Shown here piece by piece: positions 5,214 to 25,144 of a DNA stretch of 36,512 nt. The stretch is from Synechococcus sp. SB0662_bin_14 (lineage in GTDB: Bacteria > Cyanobacteriota > Cyanobacteriia > PCC-6307 > Cyanobiaceae). Under the pieces are notes generated by a model. That model did no database searches. It worked only from the letters and a program-made list of their open reading frames with translations, and had not been told where the DNA came from. Position numbers and translations under genes: made by a program. Positions within the stretch are counted from its first letter, which is position 1. The number at the start of each line of letters is the position of its first letter. The DNA is taken from contig VXNS01000076.1 of assembly GCA_009840445.1 (NCBI GenBank), positions 1-36,512 on the forward strand, in the 5' to 3' direction.

Positions 5214-7490
5214 ATGTTCCTGCACCAGCATGTTTTGGCTTCACCACCAAAAGGTTTGGCCAGTTTTCTGGTCTTGGCATTGGGTTTAAGCCTATCGGTT
5301 GGTGGGCCAGCCCAGGGCCAGGAGCAGCCCGATACATCCGACGTCGTCGTTGAGTTGCCGGAAATCAAGGTTTTTGGCGCCGCCTGGGATGGGCGCAATC
5401 TTCTTGAAACCCCCAGTGCTGTTACGGTGATTGATGGGGAAGACATGGATCGTCTTCAGCCTTCAAACTATGAAGACCTGCTGATTGACGTACCTGGCCT
5501 GGTGATTCAGGGTGGGCGAGGTGTGGCCCAGGAGCCCAATATCCGCGGCTTTCAAGATGAGCAGGTTGTGATTCGCGTCGATGGGGTCCGTCAAAACTTT
5601 AACCTCCAGCACCGCGGCCGCTTTTTTGTGGATCCATCTCTATTGAAGCAGGTTGAAGTCCTGAGGGGAGGGGCTTCCGCAATGTTTGGCTCTGGAGCAC
5701 TTGGTGGTGTCATTTCCCTTGAGACCAAGGATACCAGTGATATTCTCAAGCCTGGAGAGACATGGGGAAGCCAGGTGAACGTTGGCTTTAATAGTCAAGG
5801 GAGTCAGACATTGCGGGCTGTAACAGCAGCTTTTGCGCAGGAGAATCTGGATATGGTTGCCTTCTTCTCGCAACGTTTAATGCCAATCGATCCTGAAGAT
5901 GGTAATAATGTTAAAATTCTAGATTCTGCTGTTGATAATTTGAATGGAATGGTCAAAATGACCATGGTACCAAACGATGATCATAAACTTTCAATTGACG
6001 GGAGAATCTACACTGACAGTGGCCAAGTTCCAAATACCGCAAACCAAGATACGAATGTAGAAAATGACGAAGATAATAATAGAAATAGGGTGGCAGACCG
6101 TAATCTTGATCATCAGCAATACAGAATCAAGTGGAACTATACACCATCTAACAATGAATTGATCAATCTATCAACATTAGTCTACTATAACGAAACTCGT
6201 GTAGAAGAAACAAATTTAGGCTTGGATACTTCGAGGGATGGGGGAAGATTCGATACGACCAAGATGGCAACCATTGGTGTTGATATAACCAACTCATCTG
6301 ACATCAATTTTGGTGAGATACCTGTAGCGCTTGCCTATGGATTGGAATTCTTCAAGGATGATCATCGCGCCACTCGTGATGAAAATGACCGCCCTGAGTC
6401 TCCAACTGCCCAACGCTCCTTTTATGCCGGCTTTGCGCAAGCAGAGCTGAGTCTTTCACCGAAGTTCACTTTGAGTTCTGGTTTGCGCTACGACGCTTTT
6501 ACGCTTGATCCTCCAGATCATATGGAGAGTGGTAAAGAGTTTCAACAGCGTAAGGAAAGCTCTTTATCCCCTTGGCTTGGCTTGAATTGGCAACCTTTGG
6601 ACCATCTGCAGTTCTTTACGATTGTTTCCCAGGCTTTTCGAGCGCCAAGCTTAACTGAAATGTATGCTCAAGAGACACATTTCATTGGTCCAGTATTTGA
6701 CGAGGGCCAGGTGGTTCTGAGACAAGTTCCCGTTATCGGCAGAGATGGTCAGCCGGCTATGCGTCCCGTTATCGGCCAAAATGGTCGGCCCGTTCTCGAT
6801 CCGATTACGAATCGGCCCCTAACGATGCCTGTTACACGTCCCGCTGGTCCTGATTTGCAACCTAATGTATTTCAACCAAATGAAGATCTCAAATCTGAAA
6901 AAGCAACTCAGATTGAAATTGGTACACGTTACCAACGTAGCAACATTATAGCATCAGGAGACCAATTATTACTTTCTGCAAATGCTTACTATATCGCTGT
7001 TGATGACTATATTGAAAGTTTTGTCAACAATGATATTAATAATAATATCACATCAACACGCAACGTTAATGCAGAGCTATCTGGATTTGAGGCTGAGATG
7101 GCCTATAATGCCCGATCCTGGTTCACCTCTGCCAACCTCACGATTCCCCGTGGCAGTGAAGAGGGAAGTTCAGGACAACTGTACAGTATTCCCCAGGATC
7201 GCTTCTCTGTAACCCTTGGCCTGAGACCGGATCCGAAATGGGAGGTTGGCTTGCGTTCCACCGTGGCTGGTGAGAGAAAGATCAACGATAACGAGAGTGA
7301 CTCCCGCAACACTGACAGCTTCGTAACCTTTGATCTATTTGCCAACCTCCGACTTGGTGACGACCCTTCCTCGGACGCTCTTCTTTCGTTTGGCATTGAC
7401 AACATAACCAACCAGAAATATAAACTTCATCCCAATGTTTTGCATAGCCCCGGTAGATCCGTTAAATTAAATACACAATTTAACTTTTGA
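5214..7490 (+). CDS. TonB-dependent heme/hemoprotein outer-membrane receptor
   Basis: 758 residues, the usual size for HemR/HmuR-type receptors. A signal peptide ends near AQGQEQ. A TonB-box-like start (DVVVELPEIKVFG) leads into a plug domain with ETPSAVTVID, NIRGFQDEQ and VEVLRGGASAMFGSGALGGV. A 22-stranded barrel follows and closes with a terminal Phe (NTQFNF). H133 in the plug (LQHRGRFFVDP) and H489 (QETHF) just after the FRAP box (475-478) align with the two heme-ligand histidines known in Yersinia HemR. The NPNL box is degenerate (QPNEDLKSE) and sits behind an insertion with two copies of a VIG-x-x-GxP motif. The central part (about 5860-7100) is AT-rich compared with both ends. It is followed after 3 bp by the heme-binding protein gene. 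Confidence 0.93.
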   Translation: MFLHQHVLASPPKGLASFLVLALGLSLSVGGPAQGQEQPDTSDVVVELPEIKVFGAAWDGRNLLETPSAVTVIDGEDMDRLQPSNYEDLLIDVPGLVIQGGRGVAQEPNIRGFQDEQVVIRVDGVRQNFNLQHRGRFFVDPSLLKQVEVLRGGASAMFGSGALGGVISLETKDTSDILKPGETWGSQVNVGFNSQGSQTLRAVTAAFAQENLDMVAFFSQRLMPIDPEDGNNVKILDSAVDNLNGMVKMTMVPNDDHKLSIDGRIYTDSGQVPNTANQDTNVENDEDNNRNRVADRNLDHQQYRIKWNYTPSNNELINLSTLVYYNETRVEETNLGLDTSRDGGRFDTTKMATIGVDITNSSDINFGEIPVALAYGLEFFKDDHRATRDENDRPESPTAQRSFYAGFAQAELSLSPKFTLSSGLRYDAFTLDPPDHMESGKEFQQRKESSLSPWLGLNWQPLDHLQFFTIVSQAFRAPSLTEMYAQETHFIGPVFDEGQVVLRQVPVIGRDGQPAMRPVIGQNGRPVLDPITNRPLTMPVTRPAGPDLQPNVFQPNEDLKSEKATQIEIGTRYQRSNIIASGDQLLLSANAYYIAVDDYIESFVNNDINNNITSTRNVNAELSGFEAEMAYNARSWFTSANLTIPRGSEEGSSGQLYSIPQDRFSVTLGLRPDPKWEVGLRSTVAGERKINDNESDSRNTDSFVTFDLFANLRLGDDPSSDALLSFGIDNITNQKYKLHPNVLHSPGRSVKLNTQFNF

Positions 7491-7493
7491 ATT

Positions 7494-8462
7494 ATGTTGT
7501 GTATGTCTTCCACGGCACTTTCTCAATTCTTGAAAACTGCTTTTCGTTTTCGCGACAAAGCCGTTTCTGTTCCGTGGCGCCAGCTTCGGGCTAGCCAATT
7601 CATGACAGCAGCCGTCGCTGCGATGGCTGGCTTTCTCCTTCATGCTCCAGCCCAGGCCCAAGACTTGACCAGGCGGATTGTTGTGGCTGGTGGAGACCTC
7701 ACGGAGATCGTTTTTGCCCTTGATGCTGAAGATCAGCTTGTCGGTGTTGATCAAACATCCACATGGCCGCCGCAAGCACAAGATCTTCCCCAGATTGGCT
7801 ATGTGAGACGCCTATCTGCAGAAGGCATTCTGTCTCTGGATCCCGACTTGCTGATTGCCGCCCATGATGCCGGCCCGGATCTGGCGTTGCAGCAGCTTCG
7901 GCGGGCTGGTGTCCTGGTTGTGCAGGCGCCTGACGTGGACGGCGCCGACGGGGTGATGGCCAAGATCGCCCTGGTGGGGGAGATTCTCAATCGAGAAGAT
8001 GACGCCCAGGTCCTTGCGGCGCAGTTTCAAGCCGATCTGGCTGCCGTGCAGGCCAAGGTGGCAACCCTGACCCGGAAACCTCGGGTGTTGTTCATTCTTT
8101 CCATCGCGGGCAACGCGCCCATCGTCGGTGGCCACGACACCGCCGCAGACGACATCATCCGTCTTGCTGGCGCCACCAATGCGGCAGCAGCCGTCAGTGG
8201 CTATAAGCCCATGGGCCGGGAAGCCATTCTGGCGTCGCAGCCGGACGCGCTGTTGCTGATGAGTCACCATGCCGACACGTTTGGCGGTGCAGACGCGATC
8301 CTGATCCGTCCTGAATTCGCCCTCACTCCCGCCGGTCAAGCTGGTCATGCTGTGACCATGGACGGCTTGCTGCTGCTGGGCTTTGGACCCCGCACCCCTC
8401 AGGCCGTCGCCCAACTGGTGCGGGCCCTCCAGCCCCGGGCCGCTGTGGAAGCCGGTCTTTAA
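7494..8462 (+). CDS. hmuT: Periplasmic heme-binding protein of heme ABC importer
   Basis: 322 residues of the BtuF/HmuT cluster. They include a long N-terminal region and a signal sequence (MTAAVAAMAGFLLHAPAQAQ, residues 37-56), then RIVVAGGDLTEIVFAL and LVGVDQTSTWP. YVRRLSAEGILSLDPDLLIA follows, a pattern typical of HmuT rather than of siderophore-binding proteins. Later come VGGHDTAADDIIRLAG and LLLGFGPRTPQAV. The ATG at 7494 lies 3 bp after the receptor stop, so translation is probably coupled. A start at 7602 would give a more ordinary signal peptide. Its product should receive heme from the receptor and hand it to the permease encoded next. Confidence 0.9.
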   Translation: MLCMSSTALSQFLKTAFRFRDKAVSVPWRQLRASQFMTAAVAAMAGFLLHAPAQAQDLTRRIVVAGGDLTEIVFALDAEDQLVGVDQTSTWPPQAQDLPQIGYVRRLSAEGILSLDPDLLIAAHDAGPDLALQQLRRAGVLVVQAPDVDGADGVMAKIALVGEILNREDDAQVLAAQFQADLAAVQAKVATLTRKPRVLFILSIAGNAPIVGGHDTAADDIIRLAGATNAAAAVSGYKPMGREAILASQPDALLLMSHHADTFGGADAILIRPEFALTPAGQAGHAVTMDGLLLLGFGPRTPQAVAQLVRALQPRAAVEAGL

Positions 8463-8483
8463 CCCATGGGAGGACGTTGGAGG

Positions 8484-9521
8484 ATGGCAAGTGTCCGTCG
8501 GTGCCAGCAGTTATGGATCATCGTTCTGCTGTTGACAGTTGGTTTTTTGGCCGTGGCTGCCTTGACGTCAGGCCCTGTCGCCATCCAACCCGACCGCCTG
8601 TTGGCCACCCTTCTCGGCCAGGGGGACACGATGGAAACCGCTGTCTTTTGGGTCATTCGTTTGCCGCGGCTCCTGCTTGGCCTTGCCGCCGGCATCGCCT
8701 TGGCCCTCTCCGGCGCAGCCCTGCAAGGCATCCTGCGCAACCCCCTGGCGGATCCGGGCCTCATCGGCATCACCGCTGGCGCCTCCCTTGGCAGTGTCAC
8801 GGTCATTGTTCTCGGAGAAGCCGTTGCAGATTCTTTGCCAACAGCACTCAGACCATGGCTCTTGCCGATTGCGGCTTTTCTGGGCGCGGCCCTGGTGATT
8901 GCGCTTGTGTTTTCCCTGGCGCAACGCGACGGCACAACATCTGTGGCAACCTTGATTTTGGCCGGTGTGGCGATTAATGCCACAGCCTCTGCAATCATCG
9001 GAGGATTGGTGTATATCAGCGATGATGATCAGTTGCGGGATCTGACGTTCTGGACCATGGGCGCCCTGGCTGGGGCCGGCTGGCCTTTGGTGCTCATGGC
9101 TGTTGCCCTGACTGCCCTGTCGGCTCCCCTGCTGGTGGGGCAGGCCCAGGCGCTGGACCTGTTGCAGTTGGGAGAGCGGGCGGCATTTCACACGGGCCTG
9201 GACGTGGAGCGTTGTAAGCGCCGTGTGGCGTTGGGAACAGCGATCACCGTTGGCGCCGTCACCTCGGCCGCTGGTCCCATTGGCTTTATCGGCCTGGTGG
9301 CTCCCCACTTGGCGCGCCTCGTCTTCGGACCACGCCATGCCGTTCTGCTACCAGCCGCCGTCCTCATGGGAATTGCCCTGGTGCTGGCGGCGGATCTTGC
9401 AGTTCGTCTTGTGGCGCCCCCGGCGGAGCCGCCCCTGGGTTTGGCCATCAGCCTGATCGGGGGACCGTTTTTTCTTTGGCTGCTACTGCGCAGCCCGATG
9501 AATCACGAACAAGGGAATTAG
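8484..9521 (+). CDS. hmuU: Heme ABC transporter permease (FecCD family)
   Basis: About 345 residues with roughly ten hydrophobic membrane segments. The FecCD signatures are easy to read: LPRLLLGLAAGIALALSGAA, RNPLADPGLIGITAGASLG, and near the end GPIGFIGLVAPHLAR, the loop that contacts the ATPase. The frame opens at ATG 8466. ATG 8484 has a GGGAGG ten bases upstream and is preferred here. The first start lies 4 bp beyond the HmuT stop. It forms one operon with the receptor, the binding protein and the ATPase. Confidence 0.92.
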   Translation: MASVRRCQQLWIIVLLLTVGFLAVAALTSGPVAIQPDRLLATLLGQGDTMETAVFWVIRLPRLLLGLAAGIALALSGAALQGILRNPLADPGLIGITAGASLGSVTVIVLGEAVADSLPTALRPWLLPIAAFLGAALVIALVFSLAQRDGTTSVATLILAGVAINATASAIIGGLVYISDDDQLRDLTFWTMGALAGAGWPLVLMAVALTALSAPLLVGQAQALDLLQLGERAAFHTGLDVERCKRRVALGTAITVGAVTSAAGPIGFIGLVAPHLARLVFGPRHAVLLPAAVLMGIALVLAADLAVRLVAPPAEPPLGLAISLIGGPFFLWLLLRSPMNHEQGN

Positions 9522-9523
9522 TT

Positions 9524-10306
9524 GTGCTGGAAGCTGTCGATGTCTACGTGATGCGGGGGCGACGGCCCGTTTTGAAGGGGATCAGCCTACGGCTACAGCC
9601 CGGACGGATCACCGCCGTGATTGGCCCCAACGGTGCTGGCAAGTCAACGGTGTTGGCCTGTCTTTCGGGGGCGTTGATGCCTGGGCGTGGCACACTCCGC
9701 TTGGCTGGGGAGTGTCTGCATCAGTTGTCTGCGGCTGAGCTGGGGCGTCGCCGTGCTGTTCTTGAACAATCGCCAATCGCCCCTGCCGGATTCACGCTGA
9801 AGGTGCTGGTGGCGTTGGGAATCCCCCGCCAAGTGCCGCCGCGGCAAGCCCAGACACTGGTGGATCGGGCCCTCAAAGCTGTGGGCCTGACCGAGCACGC
9901 TCAGCAGACGATTGATGCCTTATCGGGTGGTGGGCAACAGCGGGCCCACTTGGCCCGTGTCCTGGCGCAACTCTGGGCGGGGCAGGCCTTGGGTGGCGGA
10001 CATTGGCTGCTGTTGGACGAGCCCACGGCCCACCTGGACCTGGCCCACCAGGCCGCCGTCATCCGCATTGCCCACCAGGTGGTAGCGGAAGGTGTCGGGG
10101 TGGTGGCGGTGGTCCATGACCTGACCGTTGCCGCTGCTCTGGCAAGTCACGTTGTCCTGATGCAAGGTGGTTGTGTGGTGGCCTGGGGGCCAGCGGATCA
10201 ACTTTTGCAGCCCATGGTTCTGGAGCCCGTGTACGGCCTTCCCCTGTTGCGCAATGAACCCACAACTGGAAGAACAGCAATTATCCCCCTCTTCCCTGTC
10301 CTGTGA
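9524..10306 (+). CDS. hmuV: Heme ABC transporter ATP-binding protein
   Basis: 260 residues from a GTG at 9524, which has AAGGGA eight bases upstream and starts just after the permease stop (TAG, 9519-9521). A longer TTG start at 9476 inside hmuU is less likely. Walker A is GPNGAGKST (residues 34-42), the signature is LSGGGQQRAHLAR, Walker B is HWLLLDEPTAHLD, and the switch His is in VAVVHDLT. It energises heme import through HmuU. The last codons lie in a 68-bp repeat (10293-10360) that recurs at 11568-11635, so the C-terminal residues may have been altered by an insertion-sequence end. Confidence 0.92.
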   Translation: MLEAVDVYVMRGRRPVLKGISLRLQPGRITAVIGPNGAGKSTVLACLSGALMPGRGTLRLAGECLHQLSAAELGRRRAVLEQSPIAPAGFTLKVLVALGIPRQVPPRQAQTLVDRALKAVGLTEHAQQTIDALSGGGQQRAHLARVLAQLWAGQALGGGHWLLLDEPTAHLDLAHQAAVIRIAHQVVAEGVGVVAVVHDLTVAAALASHVVLMQGGCVVAWGPADQLLQPMVLEPVYGLPLLRNEPTTGRTAIIPLFPVL

Positions 10307-10575: not shown

Positions 10576-10882
10576 ATGACTGCTGACGCTCTTTAGGCTT
10601 CTTCGTCCGAATCTAAGGTGCCCTTGGATGGGTCAAGGCAAGTGTCTCAAGATGCTCCTGGAGAACAGGTTCAGCCCATGCGGCAGGGGGAAGAGCCAGC
10701 CTTGGCCCCCTTCCTTCAGTTGCTGGATCACCATAATTGCTGCACACCCCGAGCAGTTGCAGCCTCTCCTGACCACGGATCTGAAGGCTCACCTGGAAGA
10801 CCTGGTGGGGTCTATTGACGTGGATCTCAACTCTCCCCTTGAGCCTGATGATGAAGAAGAGGAAGACTGTGAAATCCTGTGA
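10576..10882 (+). pseudogene. Decayed PrlF-type antitoxin
   Basis: From the ATG at 10576 the frame runs into an in-frame TAG at codon 7, resumes (EEPALAPFLQLLDHH), then shifts by one base near 10738. The new frame gives IIAAHPEQLQPL and SIDVDLNSPLEPDDEEEE. The order (acidic -PALAPFL-, HPE-LQPL, VDLD-PL, acidic end) is the C-terminal half of PrlF antitoxins, the partners of YhaV toxins. The AbrB-like DNA-binding domain expected before it is missing or unrecognisable. The frame ends in GTGA, overlapping the toxin start at 10879, the coupling normal for such operons. Both the stop codon and the frameshift argue that no antitoxin is made. Confidence 0.7.
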
Positions 10883-11361
10883 GTCTCCTCTGGATTATCA
10901 ATGGCTGGGCCGTTTATGCCCATCCCCAGTTTCTTGGCCAGCGGGATAAGTTGATCAGACAAGTGGAGCGCCTTTGGGCAAGGGCTCGCGAGCAAGGAGA
11001 TCCCGATGGCTATCTCGAGAAAAGGGCCAGCAAGCGCTTGGCGGCCATCATCAAACTCACAGAGGAGGTGATCCCAAGCGATCCCGGCCATGCCAGCTTT
11101 CGACAAGGTTTAACGCTAGGTCCAGATAGGTCCAGAATACAGGCATTGGCGCCGCGCCAAGTTTTGCTAACAGTACAGATTGTTCTTCCGCTTCCACCAG
11201 AGCAGCAGAATGATTATCTTGGGCTGGTTCAACGACGAGACCACCAAAAGAGGACCTATGGCGCAAAATCCGATGCCTATCACGTCTTTCAGGATATGTT
11301 GAGACGGGGATGTCCTCCCAATGACTGGAATACCCTTGTTGCCGAGGCAAATAGATCTTAA
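10879..11361 (+). pseudogene. Broken YhaV-family toxin (mRNA interferase)
   Basis: The start matches YhaV: INGWAVYAHPQFLGQ, then KRASKRLAAI and DPGHASFRQG. At 11117-11136 a 10-bp tandem duplication (TAGGTCCAGA twice) throws the frame. The next frame continues the family sequence (YRHWRRAKF, YRLFFRF, MIILGWFNDETTK) but has a TAA inside. Near 11249 the first frame resumes with RTYGAKSDAYHVFQDMLRRG, the conserved C-terminus, followed by PPNDW. The open frame across the locus therefore encodes a nonsense middle. In intact form this toxin is a ribonuclease controlled by PrlF. Loss of both parts together makes sense, because a live toxin without antitoxin would be harmful. Confidence 0.87.
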
Positions 11362-11369
11362 GGCTTTGG

Positions 11370-11560
11370 CACGCTCATACCATTCCTGTAGTTGATCGTC
11401 TGATCTGTCGGACAGTTTGCGTCGATCCCCGCAAAAGTCCGCACCACCGGCACATCAACCAACTCTTCTTCCATCCCAGTGGATAAGGACGGCGACCCAC
11501 TGTTCTGTCTTGCTTGCCATAGAAAGATTGGAGCAGTTCCTCCAACTCCTCCCAAGACAC
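11370..11560 (-). pseudogene. Remnant of an IS5-type transposase N-terminus
   Basis: On the minus strand a GTG at 11560, preceded by GGAGGAGG, begins SWEELEELLQSFYGKQDRTVGRRPYPL, which resembles IS5 transposase starts (-W-LE-LI-, GR-PYPL). The expected following segment of ~20 residues is missing. A different frame then gives MEEELVDVPVVRTFAGID and DQTINYRN, matching the family pattern MEEALY-IP-MR-FAGL, PDETTILNFR. An internal deletion with frameshift and loss of everything downstream leave a fragment only. Confidence 0.7.
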
Positions 11561-11567
11561 CTCCTCC

Positions 11568-11635
11568 TCCCTGTCCTATAAAGACCCAAGAGTGGCGCCC
11601 TGAAAATTGCAGAACCTGTATAGAGCGATCACCAG
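11568..11635. repeat. 68-bp direct repeat, copy 2
   Basis: Near-identical (60 of 68) to 10293-10360 and in the same orientation. It lies 8 bp upstream of the start of the IS5-type transposase remnant on the minus strand. It therefore probably represents the element's terminal and leader region. The frame of the downstream restriction enzyme runs through it, which argues that the enzyme starts later. Confidence 0.75.
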
Positions 11636-11724
11636 AAAGGGGCAAGGGTGAGTGTACCCATCCTACCTGCTGCGGTCTGCCGCCAGCTTACCCTACACCC
11701 ATCTCCTCCTCAAGACAGACCACC

Positions 11725-14700
11725 ATGCCCCCCGCGCCAGACCGCACCCCGTCACCAGCCCCTTGGCGCGGCAGCTTGTTTGCCCAGGATTTTCTGGGCG
11801 GGCCGTTGGCGGATTCCCCGGCCTGGGAAGCGCTGGGGGAGGGGGAATTGGCGGCGGTGGAAGCGGGTTTGCGGGGGATTGTGGAGCGTTTTCCCCGGCA
11901 GCACCAGCCCAACGAGGCCACCACCGAGGACGAGTTGATCTGGCCCGTGTTCCAGTGCCTGGGCTGGCGGGATTTCCTGCGGCAACAACGGCTCAGCAGC
12001 CGGAAGCGGGAGGACGTGCCCGACGGGGTGTTGTTTGCCAACGAGGCGGCCAAGGTCAAGGCGCTGGAGCAGGACGAGGAATGGCGATGCTATGGCCATG
12101 GGGTGGCGCTGGTGGAAGCCAAGCGTTGGGGGGTGGCGCTGGATCGCAGTAGCCCTCAGCAGCGGGCGCCGGCCGGCCAGGTGTTGCGCTATTTGCGCCG
12201 TGCCGACGACCTGACCCATGGCGCCCTGCGTTGGGGGATTCTCAGCAACGGCCAACGTTGGCGCCTCTATTACGCTGGCGCCCGCTCCGTGGCGGAGGAG
12301 TTTTTTGAGATCAACCTACCGGCAGTTTTGCGCCATCAGGACCGCCATGGACTCAAGTTGTTTGTGCTGTTGTTGCGTCCCCAGGCGTTTGTGCCGATTG
12401 CGGCTGGCCAAAGCCTGCATGAGTGGATTCTGAACGAGGGTCGCCGTTACGGGGAACGGGTGGCCGCCAACCTCTCGGATATGGTGTTTCACCAAGTGTT
12501 TCCCAGGCTCGCCAAGGCCCTGGCTGCTGCCGTCGAAGGCGCTGGCCAGCCCTTGGATCAGCCCTCCTCCCTGGCCCAGGTGCGTGAGGCTGCCCTCACC
12601 CTGCTCTACCGCCTCCTGTTCATCCTCTATGCGGAGGATCGCGGCCTGTTGCCGGTGCAGAACCTGCGCTACGATGATTATAGCTTGCGTAAGTGGCGCG
12701 ATGACGTAAAACGCCGCAAAGACGCCAAGGATGTTTTCTCCACCCGGTTTTGTCGCTACTGGTCCCACTTGCAGGATCTTTGCCAGGCCATTGACAAGGG
12801 GGATCTCTCCATTGGCCTGTCCCCCTATAACGGCGGCCTGTTCAACGCTGCCCAAACACCCCTACTGGTGGCGGTGAATCTCAACGATCAGGTGATGGCG
12901 GATGTGCTGGCGGCCCTCTCCTTTGATCGCACAACGGGAAACTACATCAATTACCGGGACCTGAGCGTTGAGCAGCTTGGCTCCATTTACGAACGGCTGC
13001 TGGATCACGAGCTGGTGCATCAGGACGGGACCGTCACGGTGCAACCCAACGTGTTTGCCCGCAAGAAATCGGGCAGTTACTACACACCGGATGCCCTGGT
13101 GCGGCTCATCATCAAGGAAACCCTGACGCCCCTGGTGGAGGGCCGCAGCGCGGAAGAGATCCTGGCGCTCAAAATCTGCGATCCGGCCATGGGCTCCGGC
13201 CACTTCCTGGTGAGCCTGGTGGACTACCTCAGTGACCGGGTAATTGAAGCCATGGCCGCCACCTCGGAGGACGATGAGACAGAAGCCCCTGGCGCCGCCG
13301 GGCGGAACGGAGCAACGGCTGCGGTGGCGGAGCGCATCGAGGCCCTCCGCGCCACCATCCGGGGAAATGCCCGCCGCGGCGGCTGGGAACTGGAGGAAAG
13401 CCAGTTAGACGACCGCCACATTGTGCGGCGTCTGGTGTTGAAACGTTGTGTCTACGGCGTGGACAAGAACCCCATGGCGGTGGAACTGGCCAAGGTTTCC
13501 CTCTGGCTCCACACCTTTACCGCCGGGGCGCCGCTGAGTTTTCTGGACCACCACCTGCGCTGTGGCGATAGCCTCTTCGGCTGCTGGGTTGGGCAAGCCA
13601 TTGAGCAAGTCATGGATGCTGGTGGGCTGGTCCTGGAGCGACCCCTGCGGGAAGCCACCCAGGCAGCCCACGCCATGCACGCCATTGAGGAGTTGACGGA
13701 TGCCGAGATTGAAGAAACAGAAGCCTCAGCACAATTTTTTGCGGAACTACAAGAAGCCACCGGCCCACTGGCAGCATTCCTCTCCCTTGCCCATGCCTTG
13801 CAATGGCTGGATCTTGCCAAGAAAGACAATAAGGAAGCTCGCAGTAACTTCCTTGTTGGACTTTATGGCAATCCTGTTGCCGTTGCAGAAGGTAAAGAGC
13901 CGGTGAAGAATGACGAGCATGGACGCTTTGCCCTGTTGTTGGAGCAGGCGCGGGCTTTACTGGCTGAGGAGGGGTTCTTCCACTGGCAAGCGGCGTTTCC
14001 AGGTCTCTGGCATGACTGGACAGGGGAGAACAGCGGCGGCTTTGATGCCGTCATTGGCAATCCCCCCTGGGAGCGGGTGAAATTGCAACAGGTGGAATGG
14101 TTTGCAGCGCGGCGGCCCGAGATTGCCAAGGTCCAGCGGGCTGCGGATCGCAAGCGCCTGATCCAGAGATTGAAGAACGCCGGTGATCCCCTGGCCGGCG
14201 CCTTTGCCCAGGCCGAACAACAGGCCAACGCCACGGCCCGCATGGCCCGTTCCTGCGGAGATTATCCCCTTCTCTCCGGGGGTGACGTGAATTTCTATTC
14301 CCTCTTTATGGAGCGGGCCATGGCGTTGGTGAAACTCCAAGGCATGGTGGGGCTGCTGGTACCCTCCGGCATCGCCTCGGACAAGACGGCAGCCAGGTTC
14401 TTCCGCCGTGTGGCCACGGAAGGGCGATTGCGCGCCCTCTACGACTTTGAGAACAAAAAGATCTTTTTCCCGGACGTTCATGCCTCGTTCAAATTCTGCG
14501 TCTTCGTGGCCAGCGCCAGCGCTTCAGCTTCTTCTCCCCCTGCCCGGTGCGCTTTTTTCCTCCACAGCACGGCAGAACTTGCCGATTCCGAACGCTGCTT
14601 TACCCTCACCCCTGAAGACTTTGCCCGTGTGAATCCCAACACCGGCACCGCCCCCATCTTCCGTAGCCGCCGGGACGCGGAACTTACCATGGGGATCTAT

Positions 14701-15708
14701 CAGCGTCTTCCCGTTTTGGTGGATCGTTCCACAGGGGAAGAGAAGAAGGCCTGGCCGGTGAAATATGTTCGCATGTTTGATATGACCAACGACTCCCACC
14801 TGTTCCGCACCAAAGAGGAACTTGAGGAGCGGGAAGGGGCCTTTCCTGTTGGTGGAAATCGTTGGGATAGCCCCAGTGGAGTTTGGGTGCCGTTGTATGA
14901 GGGGAAGATGGTGCAAGCTTTTGATCATCGGGCGGCTTCAGTAAAGGTCAATTCAGACAATCTTAATCGCCAAGGACAGCCAGTTCAAAGCTCTTACGCT
15001 GAGCTATCTGATCCGGACTTCCTTCCAAATCCAAGATATTTTGTCCAATCAGAACAAATTCGCTGGATGTCAGGGCATGATTGGTCAATTTGCTTTAAAG
15101 ATATAACATCCTCAACAAATATGCGCTCTATGATTGCAAGCATGTTATCAATATCAGCAGCCGGACACAAATTGCCATATCTATTTATAGAAAATGAATA
15201 TAATGAGAGATCCTATCTTCTTCTTGCAAATCTAAATTCCATTGTTTTTGACTATTGCGCTCGTCAGAAGATAAATACAACCAGCTTTACTCTGTTTCTA
15301 CTGGAACAACTCCCTGTCGTGCCGCCGGAACGTTATGAGCGTGAGTGTTTCGGATTAAAGACAGCGGCGGAGATTGTGCGAGCCGCTGTCCTGGAACTCA
15401 CCTACACCGCCCATGATATGTCCCCCTTCGCTCGCGACATGGGCCATGTGGATGCGGCGGGCGAAGTGCTACCGCCTTTCCCCTGGGACGAGGCCCGCCG
15501 TCTGCATCTGCGGGCCAAGCTGGATGCTCTCTATTTCCACCTCTATGGCGTCACCAACCGGGATGATGTGCGCTACATTTACTCCACCTTCCCCATCGTG
15601 GAGAGGCAAGATCAGGATAACTATGGATGTTATCGTTCCCTTGAGCTTTGCCTGGCCTACATGAATGCCTTGACGGCGGGGCAGCCGGATGTGGTGGTTG
15701 AGGGTTGA
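11725..15708 (+). CDS. Single-chain type IIG-like restriction-modification enzyme
   Basis: About 1327 residues from the ATG at 11725. The frame is open from 11479, but that part crosses a repeat. An N-terminal nuclease-like part has PDGVLF (D100) and VEAKRW (E131, K133), a PD-(D/E)xK arrangement. A helical region leads to an N6-adenine methyltransferase domain with motif I DPAMGSGHF (from residue 486) and motif IV NPPW (from residue 779). A C-terminal region expected to hold target recognition follows. Such proteins methylate one strand and cut unmodified DNA as one polypeptide (Eco57I/MmeI style). PglX of BREX is similar in the methylase part, but no BREX partners are nearby. Bases 14930-15310 are markedly AT-rich, suggesting a replaced recognition segment. 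Confidence 0.85.
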   Translation: MPPAPDRTPSPAPWRGSLFAQDFLGGPLADSPAWEALGEGELAAVEAGLRGIVERFPRQHQPNEATTEDELIWPVFQCLGWRDFLRQQRLSSRKREDVPDGVLFANEAAKVKALEQDEEWRCYGHGVALVEAKRWGVALDRSSPQQRAPAGQVLRYLRRADDLTHGALRWGILSNGQRWRLYYAGARSVAEEFFEINLPAVLRHQDRHGLKLFVLLLRPQAFVPIAAGQSLHEWILNEGRRYGERVAANLSDMVFHQVFPRLAKALAAAVEGAGQPLDQPSSLAQVREAALTLLYRLLFILYAEDRGLLPVQNLRYDDYSLRKWRDDVKRRKDAKDVFSTRFCRYWSHLQDLCQAIDKGDLSIGLSPYNGGLFNAAQTPLLVAVNLNDQVMADVLAALSFDRTTGNYINYRDLSVEQLGSIYERLLDHELVHQDGTVTVQPNVFARKKSGSYYTPDALVRLIIKETLTPLVEGRSAEEILALKICDPAMGSGHFLVSLVDYLSDRVIEAMAATSEDDETEAPGAAGRNGATAAVAERIEALRATIRGNARRGGWELEESQLDDRHIVRRLVLKRCVYGVDKNPMAVELAKVSLWLHTFTAGAPLSFLDHHLRCGDSLFGCWVGQAIEQVMDAGGLVLERPLREATQAAHAMHAIEELTDAEIEETEASAQFFAELQEATGPLAAFLSLAHALQWLDLAKKDNKEARSNFLVGLYGNPVAVAEGKEPVKNDEHGRFALLLEQARALLAEEGFFHWQAAFPGLWHDWTGENSGGFDAVIGNPPWERVKLQQVEWFAARRPEIAKVQRAADRKRLIQRLKNAGDPLAGAFAQAEQQANATARMARSCGDYPLLSGGDVNFYSLFMERAMALVKLQGMVGLLVPSGIASDKTAARFFRRVATEGRLRALYDFENKKIFFPDVHASFKFCVFVASASASASSPPARCAFFLHSTAELADSERCFTLTPEDFARVNPNTGTAPIFRSRRDAELTMGIYQRLPVLVDRSTGEEKKAWPVKYVRMFDMTNDSHLFRTKEELEEREGAFPVGGNRWDSPSGVWVPLYEGKMVQAFDHRAASVKVNSDNLNRQGQPVQSSYAELSDPDFLPNPRYFVQSEQIRWMSGHDWSICFKDITSSTNMRSMIASMLSISAAGHKLPYLFIENEYNERSYLLLANLNSIVFDYCARQKINTTSFTLFLLEQLPVVPPERYERECFGLKTAAEIVRAAVLELTYTAHDMSPFARDMGHVDAAGEVLPPFPWDEARRLHLRAKLDALYFHLYGVTNRDDVRYIYSTFPIVERQDQDNYGCYRSLELCLAYMNALTAGQPDVVVEG

Positions 15709-22813: not shown

Positions 22814-23557
22814 ATGTCCTTTTCCCTGGAGGCCTTGCCGCACGCCGTCAATCAGTTGACGCCCTCCTTGGGTACCTGTGCATCTTTCGCTCCTCTTACG
22901 TCGGCGCCACTGGCTGTGCTCAATCCTGTGGGGCAGTTGGTTGGTGCTGGCGGACCTGTGGTGGTGGTGTTGCTGGGAATGTCGGTGTTGGCGTTGACGG
23001 TGATGGTGGCCAAGGTTTGGCAATTTGCTTCCCTTGAGCTGAATCAGTTGGGGACTGTGCGCCACATGCTGGCCTTGCACCGGTCGGGGGACTCAACCCA
23101 GGCGTTGTCCGTGGCGCGGAACTGCCGTAACCCTGCTGCCGCTGTCCTGGCCCAGGCAATACGGGGCCAGTGTCACAATCTGCCAACAGCCATGGTGCGG
23201 GAGGAAGTGGAGCGAGCCAGCCATGCTCTTGTGGTCTCCCTCAGGGCCAATCTACGGCTGCTGGAGGTGACGGCATCCCTGGCGCCCCTTCTTGGCCTTC
23301 TGGGAACCGTCCTGGGTATGATCAGGGCCTTTCAACAGATTGCCCAAGCTGAAAACACCATCAATCCCTCCACACTCTCAGGGGGAATTTGGGAAGCACT
23401 GCTCACAACGGCTGTTGGCCTCAGCGTTGCCATCCCTGTCGTGGCCGTGCTCAACTGGCTGGAGGGTCGGGTTGAACAGTTTACCCATGGATTGACCGAC
23501 GTGACCACACGGGTGTTCACCACCGACCTGTCCCAGGATCAGCAGGTCACCCCATGA
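22814..23557 (+). CDS. exbB: ExbB/TolQ-type proton channel protein
   Basis: 247 residues with three membrane segments: about residues 47-68 (VVVVLLGMSVLALTVM), 155-172 (LAPLLGLLGTVLGMIRAF) and 195-215 (LLTTAVGLSVAIPVVAVL). The MotA/TolQ/ExbB core is clear in LLGLLGTVLGMI followed by GGIWEALLTTAVGLSVAIP, with the conserved Thr and Glu. ExbB pentamers surround ExbD and use the proton gradient to drive TonB. The stop overlaps the next start (ATGA), as in coupled subunit genes. Confidence 0.93.
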   Translation: MSFSLEALPHAVNQLTPSLGTCASFAPLTSAPLAVLNPVGQLVGAGGPVVVVLLGMSVLALTVMVAKVWQFASLELNQLGTVRHMLALHRSGDSTQALSVARNCRNPAAAVLAQAIRGQCHNLPTAMVREEVERASHALVVSLRANLRLLEVTASLAPLLGLLGTVLGMIRAFQQIAQAENTINPSTLSGGIWEALLTTAVGLSVAIPVVAVLNWLEGRVEQFTHGLTDVTTRVFTTDLSQDQQVTP

Positions 23558-23961
23558 CGTTGTTCGTCCCACCGTTTGCGAGCCGCCGCCGTTCGAGGGC
23601 TGCCGTCAGCCTGACGCCGTTGATTGACGTTGTCTTTATCCTCCTCATTTTCTTTATGCTGGTGTCCAACTTGCAAAGCACCAATATGATTGACCTGCGT
23701 GTGTCTGATAGAAATTCGACGCCAACGCAAGCGGAAGACAGGGCGTTACTGGTGACCATCTATCGGGATGCCCTGGAACTGGACGGCCAACCTGTTTCCC
23801 TGGGGCAGTTGCGGGATCAAGTGGCGCTTCAACCGCAACGCCAAGTGGCAATTCAATCTTCAGACGGGGTATCGTTGCAACGAATCGTGAATCTCCTGGA
23901 TCAACTGCGTAGCGTAGGGGCCAGTCAGGTGTCCTTCCTGGAAGCGGCAACGGGAGAGTGA
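23554..23961 (+). CDS. exbD: ExbD-type protein 1 (proton-pathway Asp present)
   Basis: 135 residues. One membrane anchor begins at SLTPLIDVVFILLIFFML and contains D25, the same position as the essential Asp25 of E. coli ExbD. A periplasmic domain follows, with LLVTIYRDALELDGQPVS and VAIQSSDGVSLQRIVNLLDQL. It overlaps exbB by 4 bp. It is likely the catalytic ExbD of the motor that powers TonB and, through it, the outer-membrane heme receptor. Confidence 0.93.
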   Translation: MTLFVPPFASRRRSRAAVSLTPLIDVVFILLIFFMLVSNLQSTNMIDLRVSDRNSTPTQAEDRALLVTIYRDALELDGQPVSLGQLRDQVALQPQRQVAIQSSDGVSLQRIVNLLDQLRSVGASQVSFLEAATGE

Positions 23962-23965
23962 ACCG

Positions 23966-24394
23966 ATGTACCTTCAAAGGCGACGCTACATGAGCCTCCA
24001 CGGGGGAGGCAACAAGAATGACGACGAGCGGGTGCTGCCACTCATTAATATAGTGTTTCTTCTGTTGATATTTTTTATGCTGGCGGGAAGGCTGACAGCG
24101 GAGCAAACGAACATTGAGCCGCCGCTCTCCACCAGCCGGGATTCGTCTTCCCCCCAGGCCGTGACCCTGTCCATGGATCCCCAGGGCCGCCTTTTCCTCA
24201 ATGGGTCGATGGTGCCTCAGGATCACTTGCGGCTTGCCCTGGCCCGGCATCCCGACGTGGGGACCATGGATTCACCCCTGGTGCTGCGGGCTTCGGCAGC
24301 GGCAGAGGCTACCAAGGTGGTGGCTGTGATGGGCCGCCTGCGGGATGCCGGGATCGACCAGCTTCAGCTTCTGACCATCACAGACAGCCGTTAA
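23966..24394 (+). CDS. exbD: ExbD-type protein 2 (Asn in place of the conserved Asp)
   Basis: 142 residues, starting 4 bp after the first exbD with GGGAGAG in front of the ATG. The membrane segment reads VLPLINIVFLLLIFFMLAG: residue 28 is Asn (AAT) where ExbD/TolR proteins normally have the proton-pathway Asp. The periplasmic part has VTLSMDPQGRLFLNGSMV and LVLRASAAAEATKVVAVMGRL, typical of ExbD. It probably forms a mixed ExbD pair in the ExbB ring. Tandem ExbDs with a PLIN segment occur in some other bacteria, so it is likely functional, not decayed. Confidence 0.9.
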   Translation: MYLQRRRYMSLHGGGNKNDDERVLPLINIVFLLLIFFMLAGRLTAEQTNIEPPLSTSRDSSSPQAVTLSMDPQGRLFLNGSMVPQDHLRLALARHPDVGTMDSPLVLRASAAAEATKVVAVMGRLRDAGIDQLQLLTITDSR

Positions 24395-24400
24395 CGCTCC

Positions 24401-25144
24401 ATGACGCTCACCCCACATCTATGGACCCTGGCGTTTGCCACCGCCCTGGCCACCCATGTCCTGGCGGCGGTGCTGTTGCCTCGGATCCTGTCCAGGCGCC
24501 AGAACGATCCCCCTCCCCCCAAGCCCGTTCTGGTGTCCCTCGCCACCGCACCCGCCCGCCCCGCTCCTGCGGCAACCCCACCGGCGCCCGTGCGGCCCAC
24601 GCCGCCGGTGGCCAGGCAGCCCGAGCCCGAGCCGGAGGCGCCACCAACACCGGAGGTTGCGCCACCCCAGCCCGCACCCGTACCAACAGCGGTCAAGCCG
24701 ATGCCAGTGGCCACACCACCGCAAGCGCCGTCCAGGCCGCTAACAGCCGCTGTCAGCGACGACGACAGAACTCCCGCCCAGGAGACGCCTGCCAACACAA
24801 CCACAGCGGTGGCGCCCACGCCTGCCCTGGATACCGTGGACCTGGCCCGATTACAGAACCAGTACGGCAAGGCTGCGCATCTCTGGTTGAACAAACACAA
24901 ACGCTATCCTTCCCGTGCGCAATACCGGGGGGACGAGGGGACAGTGCTGGTGACGTTTACCGTGAATCGCCATGGTGAGGTTTTGGAGTATAGTCTGGAA
25001 CGCAGCAGTGGTAATGCTCTACTGGACAAAGAGGCTTTGGCGGCAATTAGACGAGCCCAGCCTTTGCCTGTTTTTCCCGAGGACCTGGCAGAAGTTAAAG
25101 AGACCATCACCGTACGTGTCCCAATACAATTTCAGTTGCGCTAA
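24401..25144 (+). CDS. tonB: TonB energy-transducing protein
   Basis: 247 residues. The N-terminal membrane anchor is about residues 8-26 (WTLAFATALATHVLAAVLL). A long Pro/Ala-rich periplasmic spacer follows (about residues 37-135, with PEPEPEAPPTP). The C-terminal TonB domain has YPSRAQYRGDEGTVLVTFTV, NRHGEVLEYSLERSSGNALLDKEAL and RAQPLPVFPEDL. It spans the periplasm and pulls on TonB-dependent receptors. It is the last gene of exbB-exbD-exbD-tonB, 6 bp after the second exbD. The only visible client in the window is the heme receptor at 5.2 kb. Confidence 0.94.
   Translation: MTLTPHLWTLAFATALATHVLAAVLLPRILSRRQNDPPPPKPVLVSLATAPARPAPAATPPAPVRPTPPVARQPEPEPEAPPTPEVAPPQPAPVPTAVKPMPVATPPQAPSRPLTAAVSDDDRTPAQETPANTTTAVAPTPALDTVDLARLQNQYGKAAHLWLNKHKRYPSRAQYRGDEGTVLVTFTVNRHGEVLEYSLERSSGNALLDKEALAAIRRAQPLPVFPEDLAEVKETITVRVPIQFQLR

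Follow-up and report, generated by a model that had tools for sequence, protein, structure and literature searches.

Genes at the locus

The window, by which we mean the whole 36,512-nt stretch of DNA analysed here (Synechococcus sp. SB0662_bin_14, contig VXNS01000076.1), carries four closely packed genes for a TonB-dependent receptor, a predicted periplasmic binding protein, a permease and an ABC ATPase, together with a separate set of genes for a TonB-ExbBD motor (Table 1). Gaps of 3 bp separate hemR from hmuT and hmuT from hmuU, and hmuU and hmuV overlap by 46 bp, with all four genes on the + strand; in the ORF map of the window, hmuT, hmuU and hmuV are adjacent and co-directional. The initial annotation had read positions 5214-10306 as a tight operon of a receptor with HmuT, HmuU and HmuV and had placed a TonB-ExbBD motor 12 kb away. 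Both descriptions are borne out: all four ORFs lie at these positions and match the proposed families, and a single ExbB-ExbD-ExbD-TonB set occupies 22814-25144.

Table 1. Genes of the putative heme-uptake operon and of the TonB-ExbBD motor in the window
Gene	Coordinates	Strand	Features
hemR/hmuR	5214..7490	+	TonB-dependent heme receptor (predicted), 758 aa; TIGR01785 437 bits; best solved relatives are ShuA
hmuT	7494..8462	+	Predicted periplasmic heme-binding protein, PF01497; ligand candidate Y103
hmuU	8466..9521	+	FecCD-family permease; PF01032 286 bits
hmuV	9476..10306	+	ABC ATPase, PF00005; TTG start inside the end of hmuU
exbB	22814..23557	+	PF01618; no second match of this kind genome-wide
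exbD1	23554..23961	+	PF02472; membrane Asp kept (LIDVVF)
exbD2	23966..24394	+	PF02472; Asn replaces Asp (LINIVF)
tonB	24401..25144	+	TIGR01352 / PF03544

The genome to which the window belongs (2.16 Mb in 85 contigs, 99.6% complete) has Candidatus Synechococcus spongiarum SP3 and m9 as its nearest named relatives, and strain m9 comes from the sponge Theonella swinhoei (PMC5331489). Between the window and the intact copies in SP3 and m9, dN/dS is 0.16-0.32; the four operon genes are therefore under constraint and are not chance ORFs. A scan for Fur-box-like sites upstream of four hemR genes found none above shuffles, a result that counts against the heme reading developed below.

The surroundings of the operon also show several distinct features. 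hemR is markedly AT-rich, with a GC3 of 0.43 (0.44-0.47 in the orthologues seen), while most neighbouring genes have values of 0.62-0.82. Directly downstream of the operon (10879-15708), a YhaV-type toxin gene adjoins a large Eco57I-type restriction-modification gene. In SP3, the contig starts (L028, positions 1-205) with an apparent C-terminal fragment of a further TonB-dependent receptor, immediately upstream of hemR.

Candidate ligand residues and family scores of the receptor

HemR scores above the cutoffs of two heme receptor models, with 437 bits on TIGR01785 (cutoff 316.85) and 349 bits on TIGR01786 (cutoff 324), and below those of the siderophore receptor model TIGR01783 (163 bits, cutoff 223.5) and the B12 receptor model (60 bits, cutoff 600). 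TIGR01785 alone is nonetheless not diagnostic for heme, as picocyanobacterial fec-type receptors pass it too: two of the three ocean picocyanobacterial receptors tested from "siderophore"-type operons exceed the cutoff of 317 (361 and 339 bits), and the third reaches 310. Because family models alone leave the ligand unsettled, we compared the residues of the receptors.

The two histidines that had been proposed as heme ligands, H133 and H489, are present, and in an alignment to solved ShuA these candidate axial ligands fall exactly on residues 86 and 420 (numbering counted on 9dhe). His86 and His420 of ShuA have been reported as necessary for heme extraction (PMC8977872). All four full-length receptors from sponge Synechococcus have the pair, as does that of Tateyamaria omphalii, with the alignment showing it conserved in SP3, jk18, G057 and Tateyamaria. 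Both histidines are absent from the HutA-type receptors (PCC 7002 and Nostocaceae) and from the four picocyanobacterial fec-type receptors compared. Upstream in HemR, residues 47-55 (ELPEIKVFG) resemble a TonB box. AlphaFold2 models built from 3-sequence alignments had a pLDDT of 27 for HemR and 31 for HmuT.

These comparisons bear on whether the operon might instead take up siderophores, including xenosiderophores. Relatives of HemR in picocyanobacteria (22-29% identity) belong to operons that have been called siderophore uptake (PMC10119275, PMC9122953), but those receptors lack both histidines, their genomes hold no match to HmuT, and HemR itself scores far lower on the siderophore than on the heme model.

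The binding protein and the ABC transporter

The seven best PDB matches of HmuT are all heme- or hemin-type binding proteins, with E-values down to 3e-52. In alignments, Y103 corresponds to the tyrosine conserved in heme periplasmic binding proteins, which is absent from the B12 binding protein and the Nostoc binding protein compared. Counting against the heme reading, Ile204 sits at the position of the second ligand histidine of Y. pestis HmuT, a residue that we take to be a heme ligand; this second histidine is also missing from several other heme-annotated relatives. The best NCBIfam model for HmuV is the heme ABC transporter ATP-binding protein (PRK13548), at 242.9 bits just below an equivalog cutoff of 261 that is a naming threshold rather than a structural requirement; this shortfall, too, counts against the heme reading. 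For HmuU the best such model is BtuC (225 bits, below the cutoff of 334). A search of the window genome with HmuU returned one other match, a weak FecCD-like fragment.

In maximum-likelihood trees of HmuT and of HmuU, the sequences from the window, SP3, m9 and G057 are monophyletic (100/100 in both). They nest among heme-annotated transporters of proteobacteria, Thermus, Deinococcus and Leptospira (97/95 for HmuT, 98/99 for HmuU). The permeases of the picocyanobacterial operons instead form a clade separate from HmuU (100/99) together with other cyanobacterial permeases, a placement that argues further against siderophore uptake. The trees also speak to import of cobalamin or another tetrapyrrole, a reading that draws on the BtuC match of HmuU and on the distant relationship of BtuB, BtuF and BtuC to the operon proteins. 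Given that the B12 transporter included as an outgroup branches outside the heme clade and does not have the HmuT tyrosine, and that HemR attains a tenth of the B12 receptor cutoff, we regard this reading as scarcely credible.

Comparison with known uptake systems

The closest complete counterparts of operon and motor together are plasmid clusters of Roseobacteraceae. The Roseobacter heme cluster, as in Ruegeria sp. TM1040 (hmuR, hmuTUV, hmuS and exbB-exbD-exbD-tonB), resembles the window in its receptor, its hmuTUV genes and its tandem-exbD motor, and an hmuR mutant of that strain lost growth on heme and hemoglobin (PMC5225302). Plasmids of Tateyamaria and Phaeobacter carry exbB-exbD-exbD-tonB with Asn for Asp in the second ExbD, as in the window, and the HmuT and HmuU proteins of Phaeobacter and Sulfitobacter are 45% and 47% identical to those of the window, respectively. 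The Roseobacter cluster differs in including hmuS, whereas the window holds neither hmuS nor chuX/hutX and its motor lies apart from the operon. The receptors of Phaeobacter and Sulfitobacter are of another type (25%), with that of Tateyamaria being the closest (39%). The Shigella and Yersinia systems (ShuA/ShuT and HmuR/HmuT) have both receptor histidines (ShuA), the HmuT tyrosine and the TUV parts in common with the window; they differ in possessing HmuS/ShuS, and the window protein has no counterpart to the second histidine of the Y. pestis HmuT.

Among cyanobacteria, Anabaena HutA1/HutA2 and PCC 7002 HutA are likewise TonB-dependent receptors assigned to heme. Heme use has been shown experimentally for HutA1/HutA2, with ~30% of cyanobacteria quoted as having HutA-like proteins (PMC10792254), and a HutA-type receptor is present in PCC 7002 (PMC2771747). 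Heme uptake as such is thus not new in cyanobacteria. HutA-type receptors, however, are ~24% identical to HemR (in PCC 7002 and the Nostocaceae relatives compared), lack the histidine pair and have distant ABC partners. Vertical descent from these systems is rejected on identity and on the trees; judged from these comparisons, they are not the source of the window operon. The fecDCAB-tonB-exbBD siderophore operon of Prochlorococcus and Synechococcus has its general architecture and the family Cyanobiaceae in common with the window but differs in its separate HmuU clade, its lack of an HmuT match and the missing histidine pair.

Judged from sequence, the window operon is very probably a system for heme acquisition of the ShuA/HmuR-HmuTUV type, carried by a cyanobacterium that lives in symbiosis with sponges. 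As a heme importer it is of an ordinary kind; its setting is what is unusual.

The TonB-ExbBD motor

The tandem ExbD pair with Asp in the first copy and Asn in the second (23554-24394) recurs in G057 (L043) and in the heme clusters of Tateyamaria and Phaeobacter. The Asp in ExbD is the proton-carrying residue. The Asn-bearing second copy suggests either a heterodimer of the two ExbD proteins or a partner that does not conduct. A motor dedicated to heme in the window genome was considered and rejected, as the motor survives in genomes without hemR and other TonB-dependent receptors are present. Two further receptors of this kind were seen in the window genome, on C63 (L154, 1389-3854) and C58 (L155, 2336-5170).

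Probable heme degradation and a proposed route

No hmuS-type gene is attached to the operon, as the initial annotation had observed, and the absence extends further: neither HmuS (PF05171) nor ChuX/HutX (PF06228) was found genome-wide in the carrier genomes G000, G006, G007 and G057. Each carrier genome has one heme oxygenase (HO1) gene, and a search for a second, heme-catabolic heme oxygenase found none. Cyanobacteria make bilins via heme oxygenase, and the sole bilin-synthesis enzyme is likely also the heme degrader. Because a heme oxygenase is present, the missing hmuS leaves no gap.

In the route that we propose, HemR would take heme, free or from hemoproteins, at the cell surface between H133 and H489, and ExbBD-TonB would power its passage into the periplasm. 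HmuT would then carry the heme on Y103, HmuUV would import it into the cytoplasm, and the single housekeeping HO1 would open the ring to yield iron and biliverdin. We infer the substrate, the direction of import, the role of HO1 as degrader and the driving of HemR by this motor. Because the only heme oxygenase available is that of bilin synthesis, imported heme might conceivably serve also as a pigment precursor (heme to HO1 to biliverdin to phycobilins), a tentative idea that we think more doubtful than not. If true, the light-harvesting pigment of the symbiont would be built partly from heme of its animal host or neighbours.

The earlier reading of the locus as a heme importer thus stands insofar as heme is the best-supported ligand; it needs qualifying in that heme uptake has cyanobacterial precedent, the motor is not dedicated and, as set out below, the link to a host amounts to n=1.

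Distribution, loss and origin

HmuT was found in six of 400 sampled Cyanobiaceae genomes, five of them members of the S. spongiarum group (genus g1) and the sixth, G057, of genus g49, in keeping with the earlier statement that heme scavenging is not standard in picocyanobacteria. G057 (2.5 Mb in 100 contigs, 94% completeness) presumably represents Ca. Synechococcus feldmannii 277cV, which lives in symbiosis with the sponge Petrosia ficiformis (PMC6506613). In G057, hmuRTUV and exbB-exbD-exbD-tonB run divergently, and hmuV is followed downstream by a 146-aa ORF and the only heme oxygenase gene of the genome. Host association was read from named relatives for S. spongiarum and from the presumed identity of G057 for S. 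feldmannii 277cV; the contig scan for named relatives used a single query sequence and found three loci.

Of the 10 genomes of the S. spongiarum group, three carry an intact operon (G000, SP3 and, save for a contig edge, m9), three hold a wrecked one, and in four none was found. G004 has a transposase gene between hemR and a broken hmuT, and hmuU was not found in this genome. The element at this site (L030, 8010-11900) is a DDE transposase gene, and the hemR beside it is intact; this receptor is either recently orphaned or serving another route. G005 and G001 hold operon remnants, and as G005 has a flanking cupin gene in common with the window, its loss occurred in place. G002, G003, G008 and G009 yielded no copy; the last two are the less complete genomes. 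This pattern of intact, wrecked and missing copies indicates that the operon was acquired long ago and has since been lost more than once; within this sample, the trait is restricted to sponge lineages.

Such losses in related genomes raise the prospect that the importer is decaying in the window genome as well, its ORFs intact but out of use. With all four frames intact and dN/dS low against both SP3 and m9, we consider this unlikely, and retain a working heme importer as the preferred reading.

The initial annotation had suggested that heme scavenging would fit life inside an animal host or another heme-rich niche. Both carrier genera are sponge symbionts, which supports this suggestion, but the association is probably a single instance (n=1) because the operon was probably acquired once in two sister lineages. 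Host life does not require the operon, as no copy is found in four of the 10 genomes of the S. spongiarum group. The origin was likely a transfer from a proteobacterium, given the HmuT and HmuU trees and the Roseobacteraceae counterparts with the same D/N ExbD pair, and we infer that acquisition took place before S. spongiarum and S. feldmannii diverged or close to that split.

Relation to earlier work on sponge Synechococcus

Burgsdorf et al. 2019 found genes of COG0609, COG1629 and COG4558 to be enriched in sponge Synechococcus and read them as siderophore-mediated iron transport, listed as complete in m9, SP3 and 277cV (PMC6506613); the word heme is absent from the main text of that article. 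Because m9, SP3 and 277cV are the genomes that carry hmuRTUV in our analysis, it is very likely this operon that underlies the published siderophore call. We take COG4558 to be the hemin-binding periplasmic component. Weighing this published call together with the picocyanobacterial operons named above against the family scores, the histidine pair and the HmuT and HmuU data, we judge siderophore uptake to be quite improbable, and heme remains the preferred substrate. In our search, no publication named a heme transporter for S. spongiarum; the mBio 2014 and 2015 papers on S. spongiarum lay outside it.

A heme assignment would revise the iron source of the main cyanobacterial sponge symbionts from siderophores to heme, pointing to host tissue or lysed neighbours, and would open a nutritional link within the symbiosis to testing with metagenomes and metatranscriptomes that already exist. 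The main value of the analysis lies in this corrected assignment for the dominant cyanobacterial sponge symbionts and in the old, repeatedly lost trait that it reveals.

For annotation, a heme-receptor HMM cannot split heme from "siderophore" receptors in picocyanobacteria, whereas the histidine pair and the HmuT/HmuU clade can. Automatic annotation will mislabel picocyanobacterial fec-type receptors as heme receptors: in G164 and G290, receptors of the fec-tonB-exbBD type (L152 and L153) pass TIGR01785/TIGR01786 with neither heme histidine.
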